A DNA stretch of 64,000 nucleotides, taken from assembly GCA_026018925.1 (NCBI GenBank), contig JAKSZU010000004.1:37901233-37965232 (forward strand), written 5' to 3'. This stretch comes from Tupaia tana (Eukaryota; Chordata; Mammalia; Scandentia; Tupaiidae). Below, piece after piece: positions 6,575-30,096 of the stretch. The translations under genes were made by a program, and so were the position numbers. The notes under the pieces were generated by a model. It was not told where the DNA came from. It made no database searches and worked only from the letters and a program-made list of their open reading frames with translations. Position 1 is the stretch's first letter. Every line of letters begins with the position of its first letter.

Positions 6575-6871
6575 GAATTACAAATATAAACTGCTCTGGC
6601 CACATCTGGATAGAACCAGCCACAGTTTTTAAGATGGGTATGAATATCTCTGTGTATTGCCAAGCAGCGATTAGGAACTGCCAACCAAGGAAACTTAATT
6701 TTTATAAAAATGGCAACAAAGAAAGGTTTCATATCTCAAGTATTAATAAAACAACAGCTCGGCTTTTGTACAGAAACTTTTCAGAACCACGTGCTTCAGT
6801 GTACTGCACTGCGGAATGTCCAGGACTTTTTCAAGAGACACTGATATGTGGAAAAGACATTTCTTCTGGAT
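6575..6871 (+). CDS. IL23R: IL23R coding exon 2: Ig-like domain
   Basis: Residues 22-120 form the N-terminal Ig-like domain, which in IL23R makes the main contact with the p19 subunit of IL-23. Cysteines lie at 28, 50, 57, 99, 103 and 113. Sequons lie at N27 (NCS), N45 (NIS), N79 (NKT) and N89 (NFS). The last is a gain relative to human, which has NFL as I recall. Landmarks are GMNISVYCQAA, INKTTARL and CTAECP..FQETLICGKDISSG. The acceptor is CCAG at 6571-6574 and the donor GTAAGT at 6872. Length is 297 nt, phase 1 to 1. Confidence 0.97.
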
Positions 6872-7228: not shown

Positions 7229-7732
7229 AGGAAGATTTTTTGCTATAGGGCTCATATGCTGGCAGGAGAGACAGAGAGACAGAATGTGAGGGAACCGGCA
7301 GTGAGCGTAATGGCTATGTCGCTGGACTCCCACGTAGTCGACCGCGGTTCGCGTCTCGGACCCGGTGGCTTACAACTCACGCCGGGCGCGTGTGCGTGCG
7401 TGCCCAAGATCCCGAGAGGAGAATGGAGGAGAAGGGATTGCGGCGTGACCATCCCCCCTGGGGGGTGATTTCTCGCTTTCTGTCTCTCTGTCTCTCTCTG
7501 TCTGTCCGGCGAGCGCACGCGCCCTATAGCGAAAAACCTCTCAAAAAAAAAAAAAAAAAAAAAAAAAGAATGTGAGAAAACATCCCCCAGGAGGGATGGC
7601 CATGCCACAATCCCTTCTCCTCCATTCTCCTCTCAGGATGCTGGGCACACATGCACAAATGCCCAGAGGGTTTTTCAAGTCATGGGCACTGGAATTTGAA
7701 CAATGAAGGGGACCACATGGGATCTGCCTGTC
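7189..7732 (-). mobile_element. tRNA-derived SINE, type L (older), antisense, split by another SINE
   Basis: Left part 7189-7290 (T-run, TTTTTGCTATAGGGCTC), right part 7577-7732 (AACATCCCCCAGGAGG to GATCTGCCTGTCTTTC). The gap is filled by the + copy at 7291-7566. Confidence 0.8.
7291..7566 (+). mobile_element. tRNA-derived SINE, type L, young, inserted into an older SINE
   Basis: Near-consensus, CpG-rich L element (GGAACCGGCAGTGAGCG to CCCTATAGCGAAAAACC plus a long A-tail). TSD AGAATGTGAG at 7281-7290 and 7567-7576. Confidence 0.93.
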
Positions 7733-14345: not shown

Positions 14346-14374
14346 TAGCTTAGTAATTTTTTTTTTTTTTTCAG

Positions 14375-14408
14375 TATGACCATCCCCCCTGGGGGGGGTG
14401 TGATTTCT
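14375..14408 (+). mobile_element. SINE fragment at the 3' end of composite copy 1
   Basis: TATGACCATCCCCCCTGGGG and the following bases match the L-type body around its hairpin. In the composite's own orientation it is antisense and sits between the L1-like tail and the final poly(A). Confidence 0.75.
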
Positions 14409-15258
14409 TTATTTTTTTTTAATATATTTTAATTTATTTTATACATTCAATTATTATACATCAGTTAGCTAGTAAAGTGAATTTTTCAACATGAAAACAT
14501 TTCACGCAAGTCCACTTGGGGATACAATAACATTTTCAGCACAGATATTAGTCCATTTCTGTCTCATAAATTTTTTTTCTTGTAAAAAGACTTTACTCAA
14601 CATGAAATACTTCTCTAACCTGTCCAGTTGAGAATACCATACACGTCATCATCAACAGGTAATAAACCATATCTGAATCCCACTAATGTTATGCCTATTT
14701 GTTCTCTTGCTATCCTCCATACTCCTCTCTTCTCCTGTCCCATTCCACATTGCCTTCCCCCCCCATCCTTGATTCCCTATCTCCCACCCTCAGCCATCTC
14801 CCATTCTCCTCCCATGCTGTCTCTGGTATCTAAGTTTGCCCTCTATACTGTTTTTCCCCCACACCTTATTGAATCGCCACCGACTCTAAGCAATCCAAAT
14901 ACCCTCATAGCAAACACAGGTGAATCACACATTTCCATGAACACAAGTCCAACTCTACACATCCTATAAATTAGCACCTAACTGTAGCTACATGTCCCCC
15001 TACAGTCATTGAGTGGATATATATATATATTTTTTTTTCTCCTGAAATTTCTTTTCTTTTTTTCTTTTTTTTTTTTTTGTAATTCGATTAACATTCCTTC
15101 CCTCAGCATCATCACATCATACAAAATGCAATCTCACATCCAGTACATACTGCACAGTGATTCAATCATGCCCATTACAAAAAAAAAAAAATTTTCCATT
15201 ACTAGTTCCTAGAATCACTTCCACCCCGCTTTCTGACCCTCTGTCCCTTCCCACCCTC
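14409..15258 (-). mobile_element. L1 3'-UTR-like tails of composite copy 1
   Basis: Two blocks (14409-15010, 15080-15258) separated by T-runs. The first has CATCATCAACAGG and a C-rich stretch (CCTCCATACTCC, CCCATTCTCCTCCC) in the same order as other reversed L1 tails in the window. Confidence 0.6.
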
Positions 15259-15664
15259 CTTAACAATAGGGAACATAGATTCTGTTCAGGGTTGGATTAA
15301 GGATGGGTCTTGTACAGTTCCGCAAATGTAGGTGAGTCTCCATGTAATACCGTTGCAAGCGGTTTTGGTAAGCAGAGATGATTATCAGTTGATGTGGCAC
15401 AGCATCTATCTTGTGACCACCGGGAATGGTGTTGTGGGGATCCATAACGTGAGCCATCCTCGGGTATCTGGCTTCCTTAAGAATGGTGGAGTAGATCTTG
15501 TTTTCCCCTGAGGTAATGTAGGGCTGGTAACCATCATCTTCTCATTGTCCATAGGTTGAGAAAATCCTCCTATACAATACATTTCTCAAATTGGTTTAAG
15601 ACAGCTAAAGTTTCCCTCTGTTGCTTATAGTTGCAAGTTCTCGATCCTTGTCTTTGGCTTCAGC
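15259..15664 (-). other. Unique core shared by the two composite retroposons
   Basis: About 406 bp, clearly homologous to 25296-25719 (TTAACAATAGGGA(A/G)CATAG at one end, CTTCAG near the other). The minus strand shows short open frames (65 aa at 15260-15457) that are not preserved in the other copy, so it is probably non-coding. Origin unknown. Confidence 0.7.
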
Positions 15665-16450
15665 CTGCCGCCTGTGGTCGGCGGCCACGCTCAGGCACAG
15701 GGGCCACGTGCCGGCCCGGCGGCCGTGCGCAGGCACAGGCCCGGTGGCCACGCGCCGTCCCGGTGGCCATGCGCAGGCTCGGGGGCCACGTGCAGGCCCG
15801 GCGGCTACACGCAGGCCCGGTGGCCACACGCAGACCAAGGTCCGGCGACAACACACGGACCTGGCGGCCACACGTAGGCCCGGGGGCCACGCTCAGGCCC
15901 GGCGGCCATGCTCAGGCCCGGTGGCCATGTGCAGGCCCAACTGCCACGCTCAGACCCAGGGGCCACGCACAGGCCTGGGGGCCACACGCATTTCCGGCGG
16001 CCACGTGCTGGCCCAGGGGCCACGCGCAGGCCTGGCGGCCACGTGCAGACACCAGTCCAGCTGCCACACTCAGGCCCGGCAGCCATTCTCAGACCCGGGG
16101 GCCACGCGCAGGCCTGGAGGTCACGCCCAGACCTGGCGGTCACGCACCGGCACAGGCCAGGCGGTCACGCACAGGCCTGGGGGCTGCGCGCTGGCCTGGC
16201 GGCCATGCACAGGACCGGCAGCCACCAGCAGACACTGGCCCAGCGGCCACGCGCAGGCCCGGCGGCCACGCACAAGCCCGGGAACCACGTCCAGGCCCGG
16301 CGGCCACGCCCAGGCCCCGTACCACGTGCAGGCCCGGCAGTGACACTCAGGCCCGGCAGCCACGTGCAGGCACAGGCCCGGCGGTCAAGCTCAGGCCCAG
16401 GGGCCAAGCGCAGGCCCAGTGGCCACATGTAGGCACAGGCCCGGCGGCTG
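15665..16450. repeat. VNTR-A: 19-bp GC-rich minisatellite, copy 1
   Basis: Degenerate tandem units of the form GGCCACGCGCAGGCCCGGC (19 bp), about 40 units, with occasional 6-bp AGGCAC insertions. Dense in CpG. The same unit builds the array at 25720-26115. Confidence 0.92.
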
Positions 16451-16540
16451 CAGGTCATCGCCGGAGAGGCGGCTGGGGCTGGGCAGCACAGGCCACGGAA
16501 CGCGAAGCGGCGCCTGCGCAGCGGGGCCGGCGCCCAGAGC
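16451..16540. other. Linker between the two minisatellite arrays
   Basis: About 90 bp of non-repetitive GC-rich sequence (GCCGGAGAGGCGGCTGGGG). GCCGGAGAGGCAGCGGGGG near 26243 in copy 2 is probably the same segment. Confidence 0.6.
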
Positions 16541-18500
16541 CCCTGCACACGTGCGGCGCCCAGAGGCCCAGAGCCCCCACGCACGCGCGGCTCCCAGAGG
16601 CCCAGAGCCCCCACGCACTCACGGCACCCAGAGGCCCAGAGCCCCCGCGCATGCGCGGCGCCCAGAGGCCCAGAGAACCCATGCACATGAGGTGCCTAGA
16701 GGCCCAGAGCCCCCGCGCACGCGCGGCGCCCAGAGCCCCCGCACATGCGCGGCGCCCAGGGACCCAGAGCCCGCACGCACGTGCGGTGCCTAGTGGCCAA
16801 GAGCCCCCGCGCACACGCGAGGCTCAGAGGCCCAGAGCGCCAGCGCGCGCACGGCACCAGGGGCCCAGAAGCCCAGAGGCCCAGAGCCCTCGCGCACGCG
16901 CGGCGCCCAGGGGCCCAGAGGCCCAGAGCCCCCGCGCACATGCGGCGCCCAGAGCCACCTGCGCACATGCGGCGCCCAAGGGGCCCAATGCCCCCGCGCA
17001 GGCGCGGCGCCCAGGGGCCCAGAGGCCCAGAGGCCCAGAGCCCCCGCGCACGTGCGGCGCCCCCCAGGGCGCCCAGAGGCCCAGAGCCCCCGCGCATGCA
17101 CGGCGCCCAGGGGCCCGGAGGCCCAGAGCCCCCCCGCGCAGTGCAGCGCCCAGAGCCCCCGTGCACGCGTGGCGCCCAGGGGCCCAGAGGCCCAGAGCCC
17201 CCGCGCACGCGCGGCGCCCAGAGGCCCAGAGCCCCCACGCACATGTGGTGCCTAGAGGCCAAGAGCCCCCGCGCACGCGCCGGGCCCAGAGGCCCAGAGC
17301 CCCAACGCACACGCGGCACCCAGAGGCCCAGAGGCACTGAGGCCCAGAGCCCCCGCGCATGCGCGGCGCCCAGGGGCCCAGAGGCCCAGAGCCCCAGAGC
17401 ACGTGCGGCGCCCAGAGCCACCCGCGGACATGCTGCGCCCGGGGGCCCAGAGGCCCAGAGGCCCAGAGCCCCCGCACACGTGCGGCGCCCAGGGGCCTAG
17501 AGCCCCCGCACACGCGCGGCGCCCAGCCCAGAGGCCCAGAGGCCCAGAGGCCCAGAGCCCCCGCACACGTGCGGTGCCCAGGGGCCTGCACACGCGCGGC
17601 GCCCAGCCCAGAGGCCCAGAGGCCCAGAGCCCCGGCGCATGCGCCGCGCCCAGGGGCCCAGAGGCCCAGAGCCTCCGCGCACGTGCGGCGCCCAGGGTCC
17701 GAGAGGCCCAGAGCCCCCACACGCAGCGCCCGGAGGCCCAGAGTCCCCGCGCACGCGCGGCCCGCCCAGAGGCCCAGAGCCCCCGAGCACGCGCGGCGCC
17801 CAGAGGCCCAGAGCCCCCGCACACGCGCGGCACCCAGAGGCCCAGAGCCCCCACGCACACGCGGGGCCCGGAGGCCCAGAGCCCCCGCGCACGCGAGGTA
17901 CCCAGGGGCCCAGAGGCCAGAGCCCCCGCGCACGCGGGGCCCAGGGGCCCAGGGGCCCAGAGCCCCCGCGCACACGCGGCGCCCAGAGGCCCAGAACCCC
18001 CATGCACATGCGGTGCCTAGAGCCCCAGAGCCCCCGTGCACACGCGGGGCCCAGAGGCCCAGAGCCCCCACGCACACGCAGCGCCCAGAGCCCCAGAGCC
18101 CCCGCGCACATGCGGTGCCTAGAGGCCAAGAGCCCCCGCGCACGCGCCGGGCCCAGAGGCCCAGAGCCCCAACGCACGCGCAGCGCCCAGGGGTCCAGAG
18201 GCCCAGAGCCCGCGCGCACGTGCGGCGCCCAGAGCCCCCGCGGACATGCGGCGCCCGGGGGCCCAGAGGCCCAGAGCCCCCACGCACGTGCGGCGCCCAG
18301 GGGCCCATAGCCCCCGCACACACGCGGCGCCCTGGGGCCCAGAGCCCCCGCGCACGCGTGGCGCCCAGTGACCCAGAGGCCCAGAGCCCCCGCGCACGCA
18401 CGGCGCCCAGGGGACCAGAGGCCCAGAACCTCCACGCACGGGTGGCGCCCAGAGGCCCAGAGGCCCAGAGCCCCCGTGCATGCGCGGCGCCCAGTGGCCC
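16541..18500. repeat. VNTR-B: 34-bp GC-rich minisatellite
   Basis: About 2 kb of tandem units of 34 bp (for example starts at 16622 and 16656). Each combines CGGCGCCCAGAGGCCCAGAG with CCCCCGCGCACGTG-like sequence. Length varies by extra 9-bp GAGGCCCAG sub-repeats. It is present only in composite copy 1. Very high CpG and G-run content. Confidence 0.93.
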
Positions 18501-18530
18501 CGCTTAGTAATATTTTTAAAGAATTTTTTC

Positions 18531-18792
18531 TGGGGACTAGAAGATAGTGTAATGGTTATGTTACTGGAATCCCACGTAGCTGACCATGGTTCGAGTCCCA
18601 GACCCAGTGGCTTAAAACTCACGCCAGGCACATGTGCATTAGTGCCCAAAGTCTGAAGAGGAGAATGGAGGAGAAGAGATTGCAATATGGCCATCCCTTC
18701 TAGAGGATGTTTGCTTGCTTTCTGTCTCTCTGTCTCTGGCGAGCACATGTGCCCTATAGCAATATTCTCTCTAGAAAATAAAATTTAAAAAA
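18531..18792 (+). mobile_element. tRNA-derived SINE, type L
   Basis: GGGGACTAGAAGATAGTG head, GTTCGAGTCCCAGACCC, GCCCTATAGC, A-rich tail. AAAGAATTTTT(T/C)C on both sides is the TSD. It lies just right of the composite element. Confidence 0.9.
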
Positions 18793-18849
18793 AAGAATTT
18801 TTCCTGTAGTATATTTGAAGTGCACTTTCTTCAACTACTTTTTTTTTAA

Positions 18850-18949
18850 AAAAGGCATTTGCTGGACCTTTACTATTTGATAAGCACAAGAAATTTATAT
18901 CTGCTACCTCATTTGACCTCCTATACAACTTCATGATATACTGTGGTCC
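18850..18949 (-). mobile_element. MIR-like fragment
   Basis: GATAAGCACAAGAAATTTAT and CTCATTTGACCTCC fit the reversed MIR order (low-count, decayed). Confidence 0.45.
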
Positions 18950-19250
18950 AGTGTGTCCCCCTAAAATTCCTATGTTAAAGCCTAACCCTCAGTGAAATAG
19001 TTTAAAAGGGGAGATCTTTGGGAAAGATGAGTTGTGAGGGAGCCCTCTTGAATGGGATTAGTGCCATTATAAAAGAGGCCTGGGTGAGCTTGTTTGCTCC
19101 TCAACCATGTGAGGACACAGCAAAGATGCCGTCTATGAAGCAGAGAGCAAGACGCCCTCACCAGATACCCAGTCTACGGGTGCATGATTTTGGACTTACC
19201 AAACTCCAGAACTGTGAGCAGTACATTTCCATTGTTTATCATTAGCCCCG
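18950..19250 (+). mobile_element. MLT1-type MaLR solo LTR fragment (fossil)
   Basis: Ancient ERVL-MaLR LTR, order as in MLT1: GTGTCCCCCTAAAATTCC, ATGGGATTAGTGCC, ATTATAAAAGAGGCC, CCATGTGAGGACACAGCA, CTCCAGAACTGTGAG. Old, incomplete, no internal region. Confidence 0.75.
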
Positions 19251-19339
19251 GAACTGTGAAAGCACTGCCATCAAGGATAAGTCACACCAGTGAATAGTAT
19301 ACAATACCCTGAGTACTATGTGCTGATCTTCCCGTGCAT

Positions 19340-19480
19340 TTGTTGGTTCTCAGCGCTACCTTGTAATGGAGCTATTATTATTGTTACCATTTTACAGATG
19401 GCCTGGGAAGCTTGCTTTCCCTCTCCAAAGTCATTTGACTGTGAAGTAAGGGAGCTGGTTTCTAACAGAGATCTCCCTAG
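19340..19480 (-). mobile_element. MIR SINE fragment
   Basis: ATTATTGTTACCATTTTACA followed by GATGGCCTGGGAAGCTTGC matches the reversed MIR core. Confidence 0.6.
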
Positions 19481-19849
19481 CTCCACAATTGGAGGCTTAA
19501 CCTTTACCCCTTATCTCTAGAGTAAAATAGTCCCCCAGAAGTGAAGAAAGAAAGAAAGAAAACTAGAGTTTCATTGCTAAGTCAACTTTAAGAAAGTAAA
19601 AATAAGAGCAATGTGAGAGCAAACCCTACACTTTAAACTTACAGATAAACCAGGTAGTACCTGATTGACAGAGAAAGCCTAATGCCTAGTTCATGATCTC
19701 TTGGAAGTGGAGAATATCTCACGGATCTGCTGATCCTGGTTGGCTGGCTACTATTCTTCTGCAAATTTGGCTGGTTCTCACATCACTCCTGACTGATACA
19801 GGACAGGGAAAAAGTAAAGGGAGAGCCATTAAAAAGTCATCATTTGGGG

Positions 19850-20018
19850 GCTGGCAGATGGCATGGTGGTTAAAGGCACTGGACTCTCACATGGCCAACC
19901 ATGGTTCAAGTCTCAGACCTGGCGGCTTGCTTTCTCTCACTTTCTCTCTCTGTCCCTCTCCAGTCAAATTAAAATAAGTATGTAAATAAATAAAGTTAGA
20001 TAAAATAATTCTTAAAAA
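19850..20018 (+). mobile_element. tRNA-derived SINE, type S, left member of an inverted pair
   Basis: GGGGCTGGCAGATGGCATG head, GGTTCAAGTCTCAGACC B box, CT tract, TCAAATTAAAATAAG, AAAT/AAAG tail. It meets a reversed S copy tail to tail. Confidence 0.9.
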
Positions 20019-20050
20019 ATATTTTTTAAGAATTATTTTATCTAACTTTA
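19991..20050. repeat. Perfect 60-bp palindrome at a SINE-SINE junction
   Basis: Arms 19991-20020 and 20021-20050 are exact reverse complements with no spacer. They are the matching tails of the two flanking S elements. Confidence 0.95.
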
Positions 20051-20206
20051 TTCATTCATGTATTTTTAATTTGACAGAGAGACACAGAGAGAGAGAAAGA
20101 GAAAGGGGAAGTGAGAAAGCAAGTGACCAGGTCTGGGACTTGAACTGTGGTCAGCCATGTGGGAGTGTCCAGCGCCTTAACTATCATGCCACTTGCTGGT
20201 CCCCAC
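20022..20206 (-). mobile_element. tRNA-derived SINE, type S, right member of an inverted pair
   Basis: AACTTTATTCATTC, TTTTAATTTGACAGAGAG, AAGCAAGTGACCAGG, CTTGCTGGTCCCC: a full reversed S element. Confidence 0.9.
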
Positions 20207-20219
20207 TCATAGGATATTA

Positions 20220-20675
20220 TAGACAATAATTTTATTTATTTATCTTCTAGTAATATAGTAATTTTTTACAAGTCTAGAAAGAGATGTTGAATATGTTCTA
20301 ATAAGGACTAATTTCCTAGCTCTTATATATATGTCAATAATAAATTCATTCACTTATTCAAACTACAATGTAAGCAAAAATTTTTGTTTCTTTTGTTCAT
20401 TGCTTTATCTGTTAAGCCTAGAATGAGGCCAGACACATATCAAGTACTTGATCAATATTTGCTGAGGGATTATTTTAATAACTACAAAAATATTTCCTAC
20501 ATTCTCCCCTCACAATCTAGTTAAATAATAATAGCATAAGGTGATTTATATTTAAAAATTATTTTTCTAAAATCCAACAATATACCAAAAAACCTGAAAA
20601 AAAATAAAACAAACTAATTCAAATTCTGAATTGATGGAATCCAGATCACTGGGATTTATCATACTTTAAAGAGAA
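20220..20675. other. AT-rich intronic sequence with a small MIR/L2-like patch
   Basis: GGCCAGACACATATCAAGTA then TTGATCAATATTTGCTGAGG (20425-20470) looks like the 3' end of MIR or L2. Otherwise nothing recognised. Confidence 0.45.
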
Positions 20676-20681
20676 CAGAAA

Positions 20682-20930
20682 GGGAACCAGCCATGGCCTC
20701 ATGGTGAAGGCAACTATATCCCACATGGCCAACTGCACAGACCTGGAGGCTTGAGAAACACACTGGGCACATGTGCATGCATGTCCAAAATCCCAAAAGG
20801 AGGGTGAGATGAAGAAAGATTGTGGTGTGACCATTCCCCAGGGGTTGCTTTCTTGCTTCCCCTACTCCTCATTTCTCTGTTGCTCCAGAGCATATGCATC
20901 CTCTGGCAAATAAAAAAGAAAAAGAGAGAG
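20682..20930 (+). mobile_element. tRNA-derived SINE, type V
   Basis: GGGAACCAGCCATGGCCTCA head, GGAGGCTTGAGAAACACAC, GTCCAAAATCCCAAAAGG, GCATCCTCTGGCAAAT, A-rich tail. Confidence 0.8.
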
Positions 20931-21076
20931 AGAGGAGATAAAGGATGTGAAAGATTAGCATAAAAATGAGGGAAAATGAGGAAATCCAAAACACAAGCTC
21001 CTATAAGCACAGACAAGTCAGTAAAGGAAACAAACATCGATTTATCTTACAATTGATTATAAGTAAACTTATGAGT

Positions 21077-21240
21077 TGAAAAAAGAAGAAGGAGGAGAAG
21101 AAGAAGAAGGAGAAGAAGAAGAAGGAGAAGAAGAAGAAGAAGAAGAAGAAGAAGAGAAAAAGAAAAAGAAGAAGAAGAAGAAGAAGAAGAAGAAGAAGAA
21201 GAAGAAGAAGAAGAAGAAGAAGAAGGAGAAGAAGAGAAAG
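21077..21240. repeat. GAA/GGA polypurine array
   Basis: About 160 bp of almost pure purine, mostly GAA with GGA variants in its first half and two AAA shifts. Long mirror-symmetric polypurine tract. Confidence 0.95.
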
Positions 21241-21244
21241 TTAA

Positions 21245-21780
21245 GTTCTCTAGTTTTCAAAAAGATCTTTCCCTCCAGAAATAAGTCGGCTAATAATGAA
21301 TGTTGTGACTGAGGGGAGTAAGTACTCTATCAGGTTAAAAAAGCTCTTCTAGCATTCTTAGGGTACTTTCCACTATGGTAGATAGAGATCAGCGTTTGTG
21401 AGGTTTCACTTCCAATTCATGTGGTTCTGTTTTCCAGTAAAATCGCCTTTATAGAGAAGCCTTTTACCTCAGCCCACCTCCTGGTGTCACCAGTGACAGA
21501 AATGCGGTGTTTTCTCTGTGGCATACATGTAGAGGGTCTCTTGGAGTTGGGTTGAAGTTGTAAAGTAGATGAATAATGTCTCTGCTGCTTCAAGAGCTTT
21601 CTTTGTGCCCAGCTCCTTTGTGATGCTTCCAGCACACAGAACTGCATAGTGATTCACCTACCCTCCTCTACCGCCTACATTTTGCCCTGTACCAATGGGA
21701 GTTGGCTGAAAACAAATTAACCTCTGCTGAAAGCACCTTCCTATTGCTGTCCTACTATCCTCAGCAGGTCTGTGTTCATG
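21245..21780. other. Intronic sequence, nothing recognised
   Basis: No convincing repeat or gene signal; short frames only. Confidence 0.5.
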
Positions 21781-21786
21781 TGTTCT

Positions 21787-22075
21787 TTTCTTTTTTTTAA
21801 ATATTTTTTTTATTTTAAATTTGCTAGCTAGACAGTGCACGTGCTCACTGGAGAGAGACAGAGAGAGGGAGAGAGAGAGAAAGAGTGAGAAAGCACTCCC
21901 CATGGGGGGTGGTTATGCTGCAATTCTTTCTCCTCTGTCTCTCCCTCCTTCTGGGATTTGGGGCATGAATGCACATTTGCCCAGCATATTTTCCAAGCCA
22001 CTGTGTCTGGGGCTCCAACCACATAGTCAGCCATGTGGTATCTAAATACTTGAACCATCACACCACTGGATGGTC
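21787..22075 (-). mobile_element. tRNA-derived SINE, type V, antisense, with TSD
   Basis: T/A-rich tail, CTCACTGGAGAGAGACAG, AAGCACTCCCCATGGGGG, GGCATGAATGCACATTTGCC, ending CACTGGATGGTCC. CATGTGTT(C/T)T flanks both sides. Confidence 0.85.
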
Positions 22076-22104
22076 CATGTGTTTTATCTCAGGAACTCTT
22101 GTAG

Positions 22105-22160
22105 TGTCTAGGGCAGTGCCTTCCACTGAATAAACGATTATTGAATGAAAATGAGTGAAT
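22105..22160 (+). mobile_element. L2 3' end fragment
   Basis: AGGGCAGTGCCTTCCACTG then GAATAAACGATTATTGAATG is the conserved L2 3' end. Confidence 0.6.
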
Positions 22161-22194
22161 AATGGCCCTGCGTTCTGTTCCCTTCAGGTCAACT

Positions 22195-22330
22195 TAGCAA
22201 ATATTTATTTAGCATTGTTTATCTTCCTGGCACCATGTTAAACACTGGAATTAAAAAGAAAAATGTACCATCTCTGTGCATGACAACCTCATGAAGTTTT
22301 CAGAATAACACCAATGGTGGAAATTTCAGG
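22195..22330 (-). mobile_element. L2 fragment, antisense
   Basis: GCAAATATTTATTTAGCATT, then CTGGCACCATGTTAAACACTGG follow reversed L2 order. Confidence 0.5.
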
Positions 22331-22424
22331 CACTGTGACAGACCAATAGAGAAAATATTTTTGCATTGGATATCATTGTAGATCCCCTAAAACTGCATAC
22401 TCTGCCAATTCCATGGCCTTCTTG

Positions 22425-22694
22425 TTTTGTTTTGTTTTGTTTTTAAGGCTTTTGCCATAGGATGTGTGTGCTCACCAGACAGTGACAGAGAGAGAGACAG
22501 TGAGAGGGAAGGTGAGAAATCTCCCCTAGCAGGATGGCTACACTACAACCCCTTCTCCTCCATTTTCCTCTTGGGATTTTGGACACACATACATGTGCAC
22601 CCGGTGTGAGTTTCAAGCCAGGGTCTGGGACTTGAACCACAATCAGCCATGTGGGAGTCCAGTGTCCCAACCACTATGCCACATGCTAGCCCCT
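22425..22694 (-). mobile_element. tRNA-derived SINE, type L (older), antisense
   Basis: TTTTGTTTT tail, TTTTGCCATAGGATGTG, CTTCTCCTCCATTTTCCTC, GACTTGAACCACAATCAGCC, ending ATGCTAGCCCC. Confidence 0.88.
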
Positions 22695-22920
22695 GGACTG
22701 CTCATTTTGGACACATTTTTTTTCTATATTTATTTCTAATAATAGGAAGGGATTCTTAGTTATGATTTCAAATACTTTTAAGGCTGAGACATTAGGTTTC
22801 AGTAATTCCTTTAGGACTCAATGAGCAGTTCAGATTTTAAATTTCATTTCCTCATTGATTGTGAGCCCAGAGAACCAACTATAGCTGGAGACAAGCACAA
22901 CCTCATTGACTAATAATGCT

Positions 22921-23169
22921 TTGATTTTGTTGCCAGTGGGTGCGTGGGCTTTATAGAGATAGTGAGACAGAGAGAGGGAGAGGAAAAAGGCATTTCTCAA
23001 TGGGACGTGGTCACACAGCAATGCCTTTTCTCTATTTCTCCATTTCATTGAAATTTGGAGTATGAACCTACATGGGTCAGAGTGTTTTCCAAGCCACCTA
23101 GGTCTAGGAGTCAAACCACATGGTTGGGCATGTGGGATCCCTTAACCACCAAGGCCATAAGGATAGCCC
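22921..23169 (-). mobile_element. tRNA-derived SINE, type V, antisense
   Basis: GTTGCCAGTGGGTGCGTGG, CAATGGGACGTGGTCACAC, TTTCTCCATTTCATTG, CTTAACCACCAAGGCC. Confidence 0.75.
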
Positions 23170-23389
23170 GATATTACCTTATATTCATGAGTATTAACCT
23201 CAACTGGGCTCAGTCTTCATTTCACTAGGTAAGTCATGCCCCCACCAAGCCAGATATTATGTCATTACTTTTTCTTTCATGTTCGTTCTCCAAAATCTTC
23301 CTCTCCTCATTATACCAATGACCTGGTTCATATCTTACCAAGAAAACAGAAGCAATGAGAAAAACCACAACCACCCTTATCTGCTGCCA

Positions 23390-24090
23390 CATCGACTCCT
23401 GTCCCTGATCTCCCTTCTATTATTATGCATGAGCCCCTGCTGCCCTCCAGCCAGCTCTCCCGGTACCAGGTCTCATCCCTAATCCCTTTCTATTTCCCTC
23501 CTACCAAAACCTCACTGGCCACCTCACTGTCCTGTAAACAGGCCAAGCAAACCCTGCCTCAGTGCCTTTGCCGACCGCCTTGAATGTCCTTCCTCCAGAG
23601 AGCTATAGGACAATTTCTGTCACTTTTTAAAAAATTATTTATTTTATTATTAATTAATTAATTTATTTATTTATTTTTATTTGACCAGAGAGAGACAGAG
23701 GGTGAGAGCGAGAGAGAGAGGAAGTGAGAAAGCAAGCCACCAGATTCAGGACTTGAACCCTGGTCGGCCATGTGGGAGTGTCCAGCACCTTAACCACCAT
23801 GCCACCTGCTGGTCCCCTCGTAATGTCACTTTCTCAGAAATGCTTCTTCCATATCCTCATGAGGAAAAAGAAACTCCCATTCCTACTCCAGGAAATTTCT
23901 AACCCCTTTACTCTGTTTTGGTTTTCTTCTGAACATTTATCATCATAAGACATATTATATAATTCTTTGTCTTCACCAGAATGTGTGCGCCATGAAAGCT
24001 GGAATCTTATCTGAATCTCTTGCTCACTGTAACCGAAGTCTGAGGACGTGCTTGGAACACAGCTGGTGTTAAATAAACAGAGAGTGGAAT
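23390..24090 (+). mobile_element. L2 3' region, split by a SINE
   Basis: L2 landmarks in order: CTCAGTGCCTTTGCC ... GAATGTCCTTCC (23550-23597), then after the SINE at 23630-23817, ACCCCTTTACTC, CACCAGAATGTGTGCG, CATGAAAGCTGGAATCTTAT and GCTTGGAACACAGCTGG with TTAAATAAAC. Confidence 0.7.
23630..23817 (-). mobile_element. tRNA-derived SINE, type S, antisense, inside L2
   Basis: TTAAT/TTAT tail, TTTTATTTGACCAGAGAGAG, AAGCAAGCCACCAG, CACCTGCTGGTCCCC. TGTCACTTT on both sides (23609 and 23825) is a TSD. Confidence 0.9.
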
Positions 24091-24094
24091 GAGC

Positions 24095-24705
24095 GCTCAC
24101 ATAAATGAGCCATCATCACCATAAATCATTAATGTTGGCTGAAAATGTATCAATTACAACTAGGGCTAGGCGTGTGGCAGCATTAGAAAAATAGAAGTCA
24201 TGCTGATTCCCTTCAATAAATAATCTATCAAATCTTTTCCTATAAAAAAGAAACAGAAATAAGAAATTCAAAAGCTTTGTAATATAAGATCTGTAGGAGA
24301 TACAGGAAAATCCAACTCTCTATTCATTTCAATATAACCTGCCTGACACCAGATGTGTTGGTGGTGGGTGGGGCAGTTTCCCACACCTACCAATTCTCTA
24401 GCCTCACCTTCCCAGTGCCAGGAGCTGGGTAGGAAGAAGGCATTTTCATGGAGGGTTTAGTTGTAACTCCCGATAAATTGTGATTGATGTGGCATGTGTC
24501 CTTCTGCTATCTTCTCAGGGCTGCCCGCTCATTACTTAGCCAACTGCCTACCACAATAATACCAGGATACAAAGACACTTCACTTTAGGGATTCTAAAGG
24601 TTTGAGGAGCTGTGTGCTAGGAGCCAGGTAGAGACCAAATATGTATTTCTTATTATATCAGAATTTCACAAGTTCCACGTAAAAATAGTCCTTAGGTGTA
24701 GTTAC
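24095..24705. other. Intronic sequence, nothing recognised
   Basis: Unique sequence up to the left TSD of composite copy 2. Confidence 0.5.
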
Positions 24706-24731
24706 TCATGATTCCTGGATTCTTTTTATTT

Positions 24732-25255
24732 ACATTTAATCATTGCACCTCTTTACAGTGTGCAACATGGTTTTTCCCAGCATGAATACAGTGCACATTA
24801 GTCAAGACAATGATATTACCATATACATTATCATCAACAGACAACTTTTCATTTTTGTGTCTATTAAGTGTGTTGTTTGTTCCCTGAATCCCTCCCTTCC
24901 ACACTCAATTACTCATTCCCATTACCTCTCCCATACTGTCTCTAGTATCTGCAGTTGCCATCCCTGCTATTATACCTTCCAGTTCTTTTTTTTTTTTTAC
25001 ATTTAATCATTGCACCTCTTTACAGTGTACAACATGGTTTTTCCCAGCATGAATACAGTGCACATTAGTCAAGACAATGATTATACCATATACACTATCA
25101 TCAACAGACAACTTTTCATTTTTGTGTCTATTAAGTGTGTTGTTTGTTCCCTGAATCCCTCCCTTCCGCCCTCAATTACTCATTCCCATTACCTCTCCCA
25201 TACTGTCTCTAGTATCTGCAGTTGCCATCCCTGCTATTATACCTTCCAGTTCTTT
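24732..25255 (-). repeat. Tandem pair of L1 3'-UTR-like tails, period 267 bp
   Basis: Block starting ACATTTAATCATTGC at 24732 repeats at 24999 with about half a dozen differences; a T-run separates them. The landmark ATCATCAACAGACAAC is the reverse of the L1 tail motif elsewhere in the window. Confidence 0.9.
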
Positions 25256-25295
25256 CAGTTTCTTTTTTTTTTTTCAATTATCAGCTCATATAGTT

Positions 25296-25719
25296 TTTAA
25301 CAATAGGGAGCATAGATTCTATTCAGGGTTGGATTAAGGGTGGGTCTCGTGCAGTTCCACAATTGTAGGTGAGTCTCCATGGAATACAGTTTCAGGAAAG
25401 CGGTTCTGGAAAGCAGAGGTGATTATCAGTTGATGCGGCACAGCATCCATCTTGTGATTACTGGGAATGGTGTTGTGGGGATCTGCAGCATGAGTCATCC
25501 TCAGGTATCTAGCTTCCTTAAGAATGGTAGAGTAGTTCTTGTTTTTCCCTGAGGTAATGCAGGGCTGGTAACCATCATCTTCTCACTGTCCATAGGCAGG
25601 GAAAATCCTCCTATATAATATATTTCTCAATTGATTTAAGACAGCTAAAGTTTCTTTCTGTTGCTTGTAGTTGCAAGTTCTTAATCCTAGTTTTCGGCTT
25701 CAGTTTGCCGCCTGTGGCC
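25296..25719 (-). other. Unique core of composite copy 2
   Basis: Homologous to 15259-15664 over its full length at roughly 90% by eye. No shared intact reading frame. Confidence 0.75.
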
Positions 25720-26115
25720 AACGGCCACGTGCAGGCCCGGGGGCCACGCGCAGGCCCGGCGGCCACGTGCAGGCGCAGGCCCGGTGGCCACATGCAGGCC
25801 CGGCGGCCACGCTCCGGTGCAGGCCCAGTGGCCATGCTCCGGCCCGGCGGCCACGCGCAGGCACAGGCCCAGCGGCCGCGCGCAGGCCCAGGGACCGCAC
25901 ACAGGCCCGGCGGCCGCACGCAGGCCCTGAGGCTGCACGCAGGCCCGGCGGCCACGCACAGGCCCGGCAACCACGCGTAGGCGCAGGTCCGGCGGCCACG
26001 CGCAGGCCCGGCGGCCATGCACTGGCTCGGCGACCACGCACAGGCCCGGCGGCCACGCTCAGGCCCGGCGGCCACGCACAGGTCCGGCGGCCACGCACAG
26101 GCCCGGCGGCCACAC
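25720..26115. repeat. VNTR-A: 19-bp GC-rich minisatellite, copy 2
   Basis: About 20 units of GGCCACGCGCAGGCCCGGC type (for example starts at 25742 and 25761), less diverged than in copy 1. Confidence 0.93.
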
Positions 26116-26359
26116 GCCAGCCCCAAGTGCACGAATGTGTGTGGGATCCAGCGCCACCTTCTGCTTGCCTGCCCGGCCCGAGAAAGGAAGGACGGCGAGC
26201 TCGGCTGGCCCGAGTCGGCGCCGAGCGTGGGACACACCCAGTGCCGGAGAGGCAGCGGGGGCCGCGTAGGCCCAACCGTGCGGCATGCGAGGCAGAGCCC
26301 CGGCCCGCCGCGCAGGCCCGGCCCGCCGTGCAGATGATTCCTGGATTCTTCAACTAAAA

Positions 26360-29958: not shown

Positions 29959-30096
29959 TTATTTATTTTAACTTGGCAAGAGAGGAACAGAGAGAGAGAG
30001 AAAGTGAGAAAGCAAGCCACCAGGTCCAGGACTCGAACCACGGTCTGCCATGTAGGAGTCCACCACCATTAACCTCCATGCCACCTGCTGACCCCT
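29905..30096 (-). mobile_element. tRNA-derived SINE, type S, antisense, with (TCTA)n tail
   Basis: The tail has become a TCTA tetranucleotide array (about 29918-29958). Body AAGCAAGCCACCAGGTCCAG, head CACGGTCTGCCATG, end CCTGCTGACCCC. Confidence 0.9.

Follow-up and report, generated by a model that had tools for sequence, protein, structure and literature searches.

The stretch analysed here comprises 64,000 nucleotides of the Tupaia tana assembly GCA_026018925.1 (contig JAKSZU010000004.1, positions 37,901,233 to 37,965,232 of the forward strand; hereafter the window) and carries two separate composite insertions on its minus strand, E1 (14358–18501) and E2 (24725–26333). Plus-strand exon-like frames at ~13303 and ~31013 flank both, and additional plus-strand frames of the same gene lie at 6583, 38699 and 52784. 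This gene is presumably IL23R-like. Because the frames at ~13303 and ~31013 bracket both elements, E1 and E2, antisense to the gene, share a single intron, which is where an earlier reading of the window from its letters alone (the original prediction) had placed them. At gathering level, the window has 0 matches to Rfam.

Results

On the minus strand both elements run from a 19-bp GC-rich variable number tandem repeat (VNTR) through a unique core of ~410 bp into a tail that resembles a long interspersed element (LINE), in the order that had been predicted. The cores (15259–15670 and 25297–25710) are 87.5% identical over 415 bp in a pairwise alignment and both terminate in CCCTATTGTTAA, after which the sequences diverge. 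The predicted start of E1 at 14358 holds, but its extent had to be corrected: since a 34-bp array lies upstream of the 19-bp array, this array also belongs to E1, which ends at 18501.

Read from its 5' end, E1 consists of the 34-bp tandem array (16526–18501; repeat mapping 16532–18424, period 34, 54.4 copies), a spacer (16445–16525), the 19-bp VNTR (15679–16444; repeat mapping 15679–16426, period 19, 37.5 copies; GC 0.76, CpG observed/expected ratio 0.69), the core (15260–15678; 40 scored genome matches) and a 3' tail at 14408–15259. This tail defines what we call subfamily A and is of the 3' untranslated region (UTR) type of HAL1-like elements, with ~500 bp matching the 3' portion of loci that bear open reading frame 1 (ORF1). 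The poly(A), read from the sequence as poly(T) on the plus strand, occupies 14358–14371. Between tail and poly(A) lies an antisense scrap of a short interspersed element (SINE; 14372–14407), which resembles the SINE stretch at 7438–7480 and a mapped repeat family (D10) and which we read as a short 3' transduction. The target-site duplication (TSD) of E1 is GCTTAGTAAT, with 10 exact bp followed by one A/T mismatch and TTTT on the poly(A) side (14348–14357) and a second copy on the 5' side (18502–18511).

E2 starts with a CpG-rich domain (26118–26333) that recurs in further copies of B or C type (one at the genomic locus L042, two at L010) and is lacking in L040 and L041. It continues with the 19-bp VNTR (25720–26117; repeat mapping 25722–26117, period 19, 19.6 copies), the core (25297–25719; 40 scored genome matches) and a tail of subfamily B (24725–25296), made up of a linker and two 267-bp copies similar to an L1 3' UTR, ~96–97% alike, with an A-rich stretch between them. 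Its 17-bp TSD, ATGATTCCTGGATTCTT, stands at 24708–24724 and at 26334–26350, so that each element has its own duplication, as had been claimed.

The design is dispersed widely through the window's own 2.95-Gb assembly, which was the genome searched. A 24-mer from the core occurs at 1,818 places with at most 2 mismatches, and the same pattern read backwards at 0, which excludes chance. The E1-type (A) junction between core and tail was counted at 198 places (at most 1 mismatch) and the E2-type (B) junction at 993 (at most 2 mismatches), with 0 places for either backwards-read control; because the mismatch limits differ, the two counts form no strict ratio. Core places outnumber A and B junction places by 627. 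We take these pattern counts as firmer than the numbers of first-look candidates. With the E1 core as query, the best 40 of 2,926 such candidates were E1 and 39 others at 97–99% identity (≥405 of 406 bases aligned); with the E2 core, the best 40 of 2,913 were E2 and 39 others at 97–98%. Viral contigs scanned for the core pattern and for a SINE pattern gave 0 matches each.

Dispersed copies exclude a single-locus core and a segmental duplication, two of the outcomes that could have undone the original prediction. That E1 and E2 are local duplicates of each other has next to no probability: they share one intron, one strand and 87.5% core identity, but their tails, TSDs and 5' parts differ, each has nearer relatives (97–99%) at other places in the genome than its neighbour in the intron, and 41 fixed differences separate the cores of 21 A and 4 B copies. 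A reading of the 87.5% identity as a sign of old insertions proved wrong, as E1 and E2 represent separate subfamilies and both have close copies elsewhere.

For subfamily A we fetched 20 (L009–L028) of the 39 scored E1-type places besides E1, all top matches to E1; the B copies read are only E2, L040–L042 and one copy in L010. The core runs directly into the start of the A tail in 20/20 fetched copies, with a deletion inside the tail in L015 and a tail in L010 that is interrupted by a nested element and then resumes. The 34-bp array lies 5' of the 19-bp array in 19 of the 20, the exception being L021. Across the 20 copies the VNTR spans 322–3399 bp at a GC content of 0.76–0.79, and the CpG observed/expected ratio of the arrays is 0.69–0.88, compared with 0.28 at 30000–60000 of the window. 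By motif, 4 of the A copies have HAL1-like and 12 have E1-like 3' ends; L011, L026 and L028 have neither, and L010 was left out. Among the B copies, E2, L042 and the one in L010 begin with the CpG-rich domain, which has the short motif CCTCTCCGGC in common with the A spacer, and L040 and L041 start in the 19-bp array. The tail has multiplied within subfamily B: its 267-bp unit is present twice in E2 and once in L042, and L040 has a second, partial copy. The element nested in L010 represents a further form, C, which has a B-like tail and lacks a block of ~50 bp inside the core.

The A cores differ by a mean pairwise 1.65% among 21 copies, which is an underestimate because the copies were selected as nearest to E1, and the B cores by 0.9–1.9% among 4 copies, also chosen by similarity. 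Divergence between A and B cores is 9.9%. There are thus at least two subfamilies (A and B) and a third form (C), and A and B fuse the identical core base to different tails. To judge from its sequences, the family is recently mobile. Because B and C have the sequence after the core in common, subfamily A probably acquired its HAL1-type tail later.

Marks of insertion were sought as exact words of at least 11 bp common to the 5' and 3' edges of the 20 copies, E1 and E2. Such terminal repeats were found in 16/22 elements and in 5/462 cross-paired edges of different loci. Many scattered copies with a VNTR before the core, poly(A) after it and duplicated target sites are what the original prediction had asked for, and the genome contains them. 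L014, L020 and L027 have target sites such as TTTT/AAA, which resemble those of the L1 endonuclease. L019 is inserted inside an L1 ORF1 with a 16-bp duplication, and its two flanks overlap by 14 bp when aligned to HAL1 ORF1, which reconstructs the empty site. L017 lies downstream of an ORF2 start, at a place read as ORF2, and L024 adjoins an L1 3' end. In L010 the C-type element splits the A tail with a 15-bp overlap, and an 11-bp match (AAACTAGTTTT) is readable by eye. A 15-bp duplication candidate in L021 adjoins an apparent 5' inversion. Taken as sequence signatures, the insertion marks are those of L1-type target-primed reverse transcription.

The tails come from two kinds of LINE. Among the matches listed, the first ~500 bp of the A tail align at 74–83% with the 3' portion of loci bearing ORF1 in 8/9 cases; L031 has only short A-tail matches, none >150 bp, and L029 is outside these matches. 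In L030, L036 and L038 a 340-codon ORF1 frame is followed within ~1 kb by a 3' end and an A-rich stretch, and we call these loci HAL1-like because they have ORF1 without ORF2; HAL1 encodes ORF1 only (PMC5753468). The B tail matches 39008–38854 of the window, located after an ORF2-like stretch, at 69–79%; with an L1-like copy in L017 it shares 70% identity along 227 bp of that copy's 3' portion. Hence the prediction of L1 3'-UTR-like tails stands for E2 and falls for E1, whose tail matches an ORF1-only, HAL1-like element. We also withdrew the idea of an L1 lineage as the source of the intact ORF1 copies, as those copies are HAL1-like. The HAL1-like family has open ORF1 frames of ~340 codons in L030, L035, L036, L038 and many other matches. 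In L038 tandem 5' UTR monomers of ~120 bp can be made out by eye, and in L029 a HAL1-like ORF1 continues into a GC-rich tandem repeat (~158 bp).

HAL1-like and L1 5' regions in this genome are also tandem monomers, and the tails of E1 and E2 are LINE 3' ends, both of which would fit the view that an ordinary L1 or HAL1 has VNTR and core as its 5' UTR and that E1 and E2 are internally deleted LINEs. We consider this very unlikely. None of 10 ORF1 loci, each with ~1 kb upstream of ORF1, contains a core match (best E 1.6), the L1 in L019 (pieces of both ORFs, endonuclease and FADD motifs among them) has a 5' region that is neither VNTR nor core, and in the 20 A copies it is the tail, and no ORF, that follows the core. 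This verdict covers the 10 ORF1 loci, one copy with ORF1 and ORF2 and one repeat search, and in these LINE copies it contradicts an L1 5' UTR, a further outcome that could have overturned the original prediction. The 5' region of the L019 L1 is itself a repeat: a 701-bp piece of it, possibly extending some hundred bases into ORF1, gave matches of 81–100% in the best 40 of 5,330 candidates. At one place (G000:C1197:79080049-79085884) monomers of the L1 5' region form a long array in tandem, at intervals of ~215 bp.

The core could instead stem from an exon captured from a host gene, in which case the family would be a spliced chimeric transcript that was repeatedly retrotransposed. All three core forms, A, B and C, keep an open frame of ~82 codons without a stop (15260–15541, 25297–25540 and L010), the ~50 bp missing from C could be an alternative exon, and differences between C and B in this frame are uneven by codon position (10, 11, 3). 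Differences between A and B, in contrast, are even (10, 10, 8), with no coding-type pattern. A search of 5.8 billion proteins, in which mammalian proteins are possibly only partly covered, yielded no candidate for the core, and neither Pfam (best E 0.18, below the cut-off) nor PDB (best E 0.92) has a significant match to it. The TTAA at the end of the core is a poor splice donor by the usual consensus. We regard this origin as rather unlikely. The idea of a splice donor at the A/B junction was dropped as unsupported: the exon would end in TTAA, and a pyrimidine tract is missing from GTGTGAGAG on the HAL1 side.

Discussion

SVA, LAVA, PVA and FVA are specific to hominoids and combine a common CT-hexamer/Alu-like 5' region and a central VNTR with differing 3' ends, and in younger human SVAs the VNTR has two parts (PMC4432496). 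First exons spliced onto SVA are described in PMC6139936. The family of E1 and E2 has the same design, namely a GC-rich VNTR whose length varies between copies (20 copies), a unique domain, alternative 3' domains attached to one common 5'/VNTR part (A junctions at 198 places, B junctions at 993), and the poly(A) and TSDs of L1-type insertion. Judged by its 5' region and by Alu content, it is nonetheless highly improbable that it is this hominoid group or a close relative. The CT-hexamer/Alu-like region described in PMC4432496 is not seen: A copies start in GC-rich arrays, and B copies start either in the 19-bp array or in the CpG-rich domain.

A hand-typed Alu consensus has no match in the window and only two in the 336 kb examined, overlaps included, both outside composite elements (L041 2451–2511, 62 bp; L011 8723–8756, 34 bp). 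These short pieces might hint at a 7SL-derived SINE in the host. Dense SINEs with CT-rich ends occur throughout 1944–62360, one copy used as query giving 44 matches in the window, and are presumably tRNA-like. A likeness of this SINE to those of colugos gained no support, and our colugo searches of the literature, PMC4198772 included, yielded nothing pertinent. The absence of Alu from the window alongside 44 matches of another SINE is indirect evidence against a hominoid host. Because the defining Alu-like part is absent, we do not file the family under SVA, LAVA, PVA or FVA.

Comparison with each known system sharpens this placement. Like SVA of hominoids, the family is a non-autonomous composite with a GC-rich VNTR, a unique 3' domain, poly(A), TSDs and L1-type insertion, but it is set apart by its 5' part, in which nothing Alu-like was found, by units of 34 and 19 bp where SVA has 30–50 bp, and by a host that does not look hominoid. 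Like LAVA, PVA and FVA of gibbons it carries different 3' ends on one common 5' and VNTR part, and LAVA also terminates in an L1 fragment; unlike them, it has a different 5' part, and here the core is constant and the LINE tail changes. HAL1 is matched by the A tail in its 3' UTR, but the family has no ORF1 and has its own VNTR and core and a different 5' region. It does not belong to HAL1, as the ORF1-bearing loci do not match the core and the core has no significant Pfam match. L1 is approached by the 3' UTR-like tail of B and by the insertion hallmarks, but the family lacks ORF1 and ORF2, and the L1 copy that was examined has another monomer repeat in its 5' region. Our literature searches found no paper on such a family, an absence limited to those searches; a term search of PMC5857283 returned nothing relevant.

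We hold it very likely that E1 and E2 are members of a family of non-autonomous composite retroposons without long terminal repeats, presumably mobilised in trans by L1, with the formula [5' GC-rich array or domain]-[19-bp VNTR]-[410-bp unique core]-[LINE-derived 3' tail]-poly(A). The family is dispersed at high copy number, keeps a fixed module order in the copies read, varies in array length and shows nesting. Several points weigh against this assignment. The A copies read are the top matches to E1, and the reading of B is limited to the few copies named above. No exact duplication of at least 11 bp was found in 6/22 elements (L010, L015, L021, L023, L028 and E1, which has 10 bp), and the word of L024 is A-rich and lies 96 bp beyond the tail; hence ~15 duplications are convincing. 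The A copies have no common fixed 5' terminus, and a promoter is unproven because they begin at varying points within the arrays. No intact autonomous L1 was found among the copies read, the ORF2-bearing L019 and L024 having stops and frameshifts, and the intact ORF1 frames among them are all in HAL1-like elements; because the ORF2-bearing copies read are broken, L1 proteins are a driver that we infer.

On the assignment to a composite retroposon family, an RNA polymerase II transcript would start in the CpG-rich 5' region, a putative promoter, be polyadenylated and be captured in trans by the ORF2 protein (ORF2p) of L1, and target-primed reverse transcription would then insert it. A template switch or splicing may have supplied the 3' end derived from L1 or HAL1, although the splice origin was considered and is unsupported, and a later tail swap would have produced subfamily A.

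The design looks independently invented, because sequence and host are unrelated to SVA and LAVA as far as tested. Taken together, VNTR composites were in our judgement probably invented independently outside hominoids, with A, B and C on a common VNTR-core chassis, recently mobile, and with 3' ends swapped between L1-type and HAL1-type donors, in parallel to SVA, LAVA, PVA and FVA. If this is true, a GC-rich VNTR before a LINE tail would be a recurrent, functionally favoured way to parasitise L1. An unrelated high-copy family of SVA design would make the role of the VNTR in L1 trans-mobilisation testable: the features common to both inventions, GC- and CpG-rich arrays and an exchangeable 3' end, would be candidates for function, and those not in common, such as the Alu-like 5' part, would not be essential. 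The HAL1-like tail would also bear on the question of whether ORF1-only elements join the cycle.

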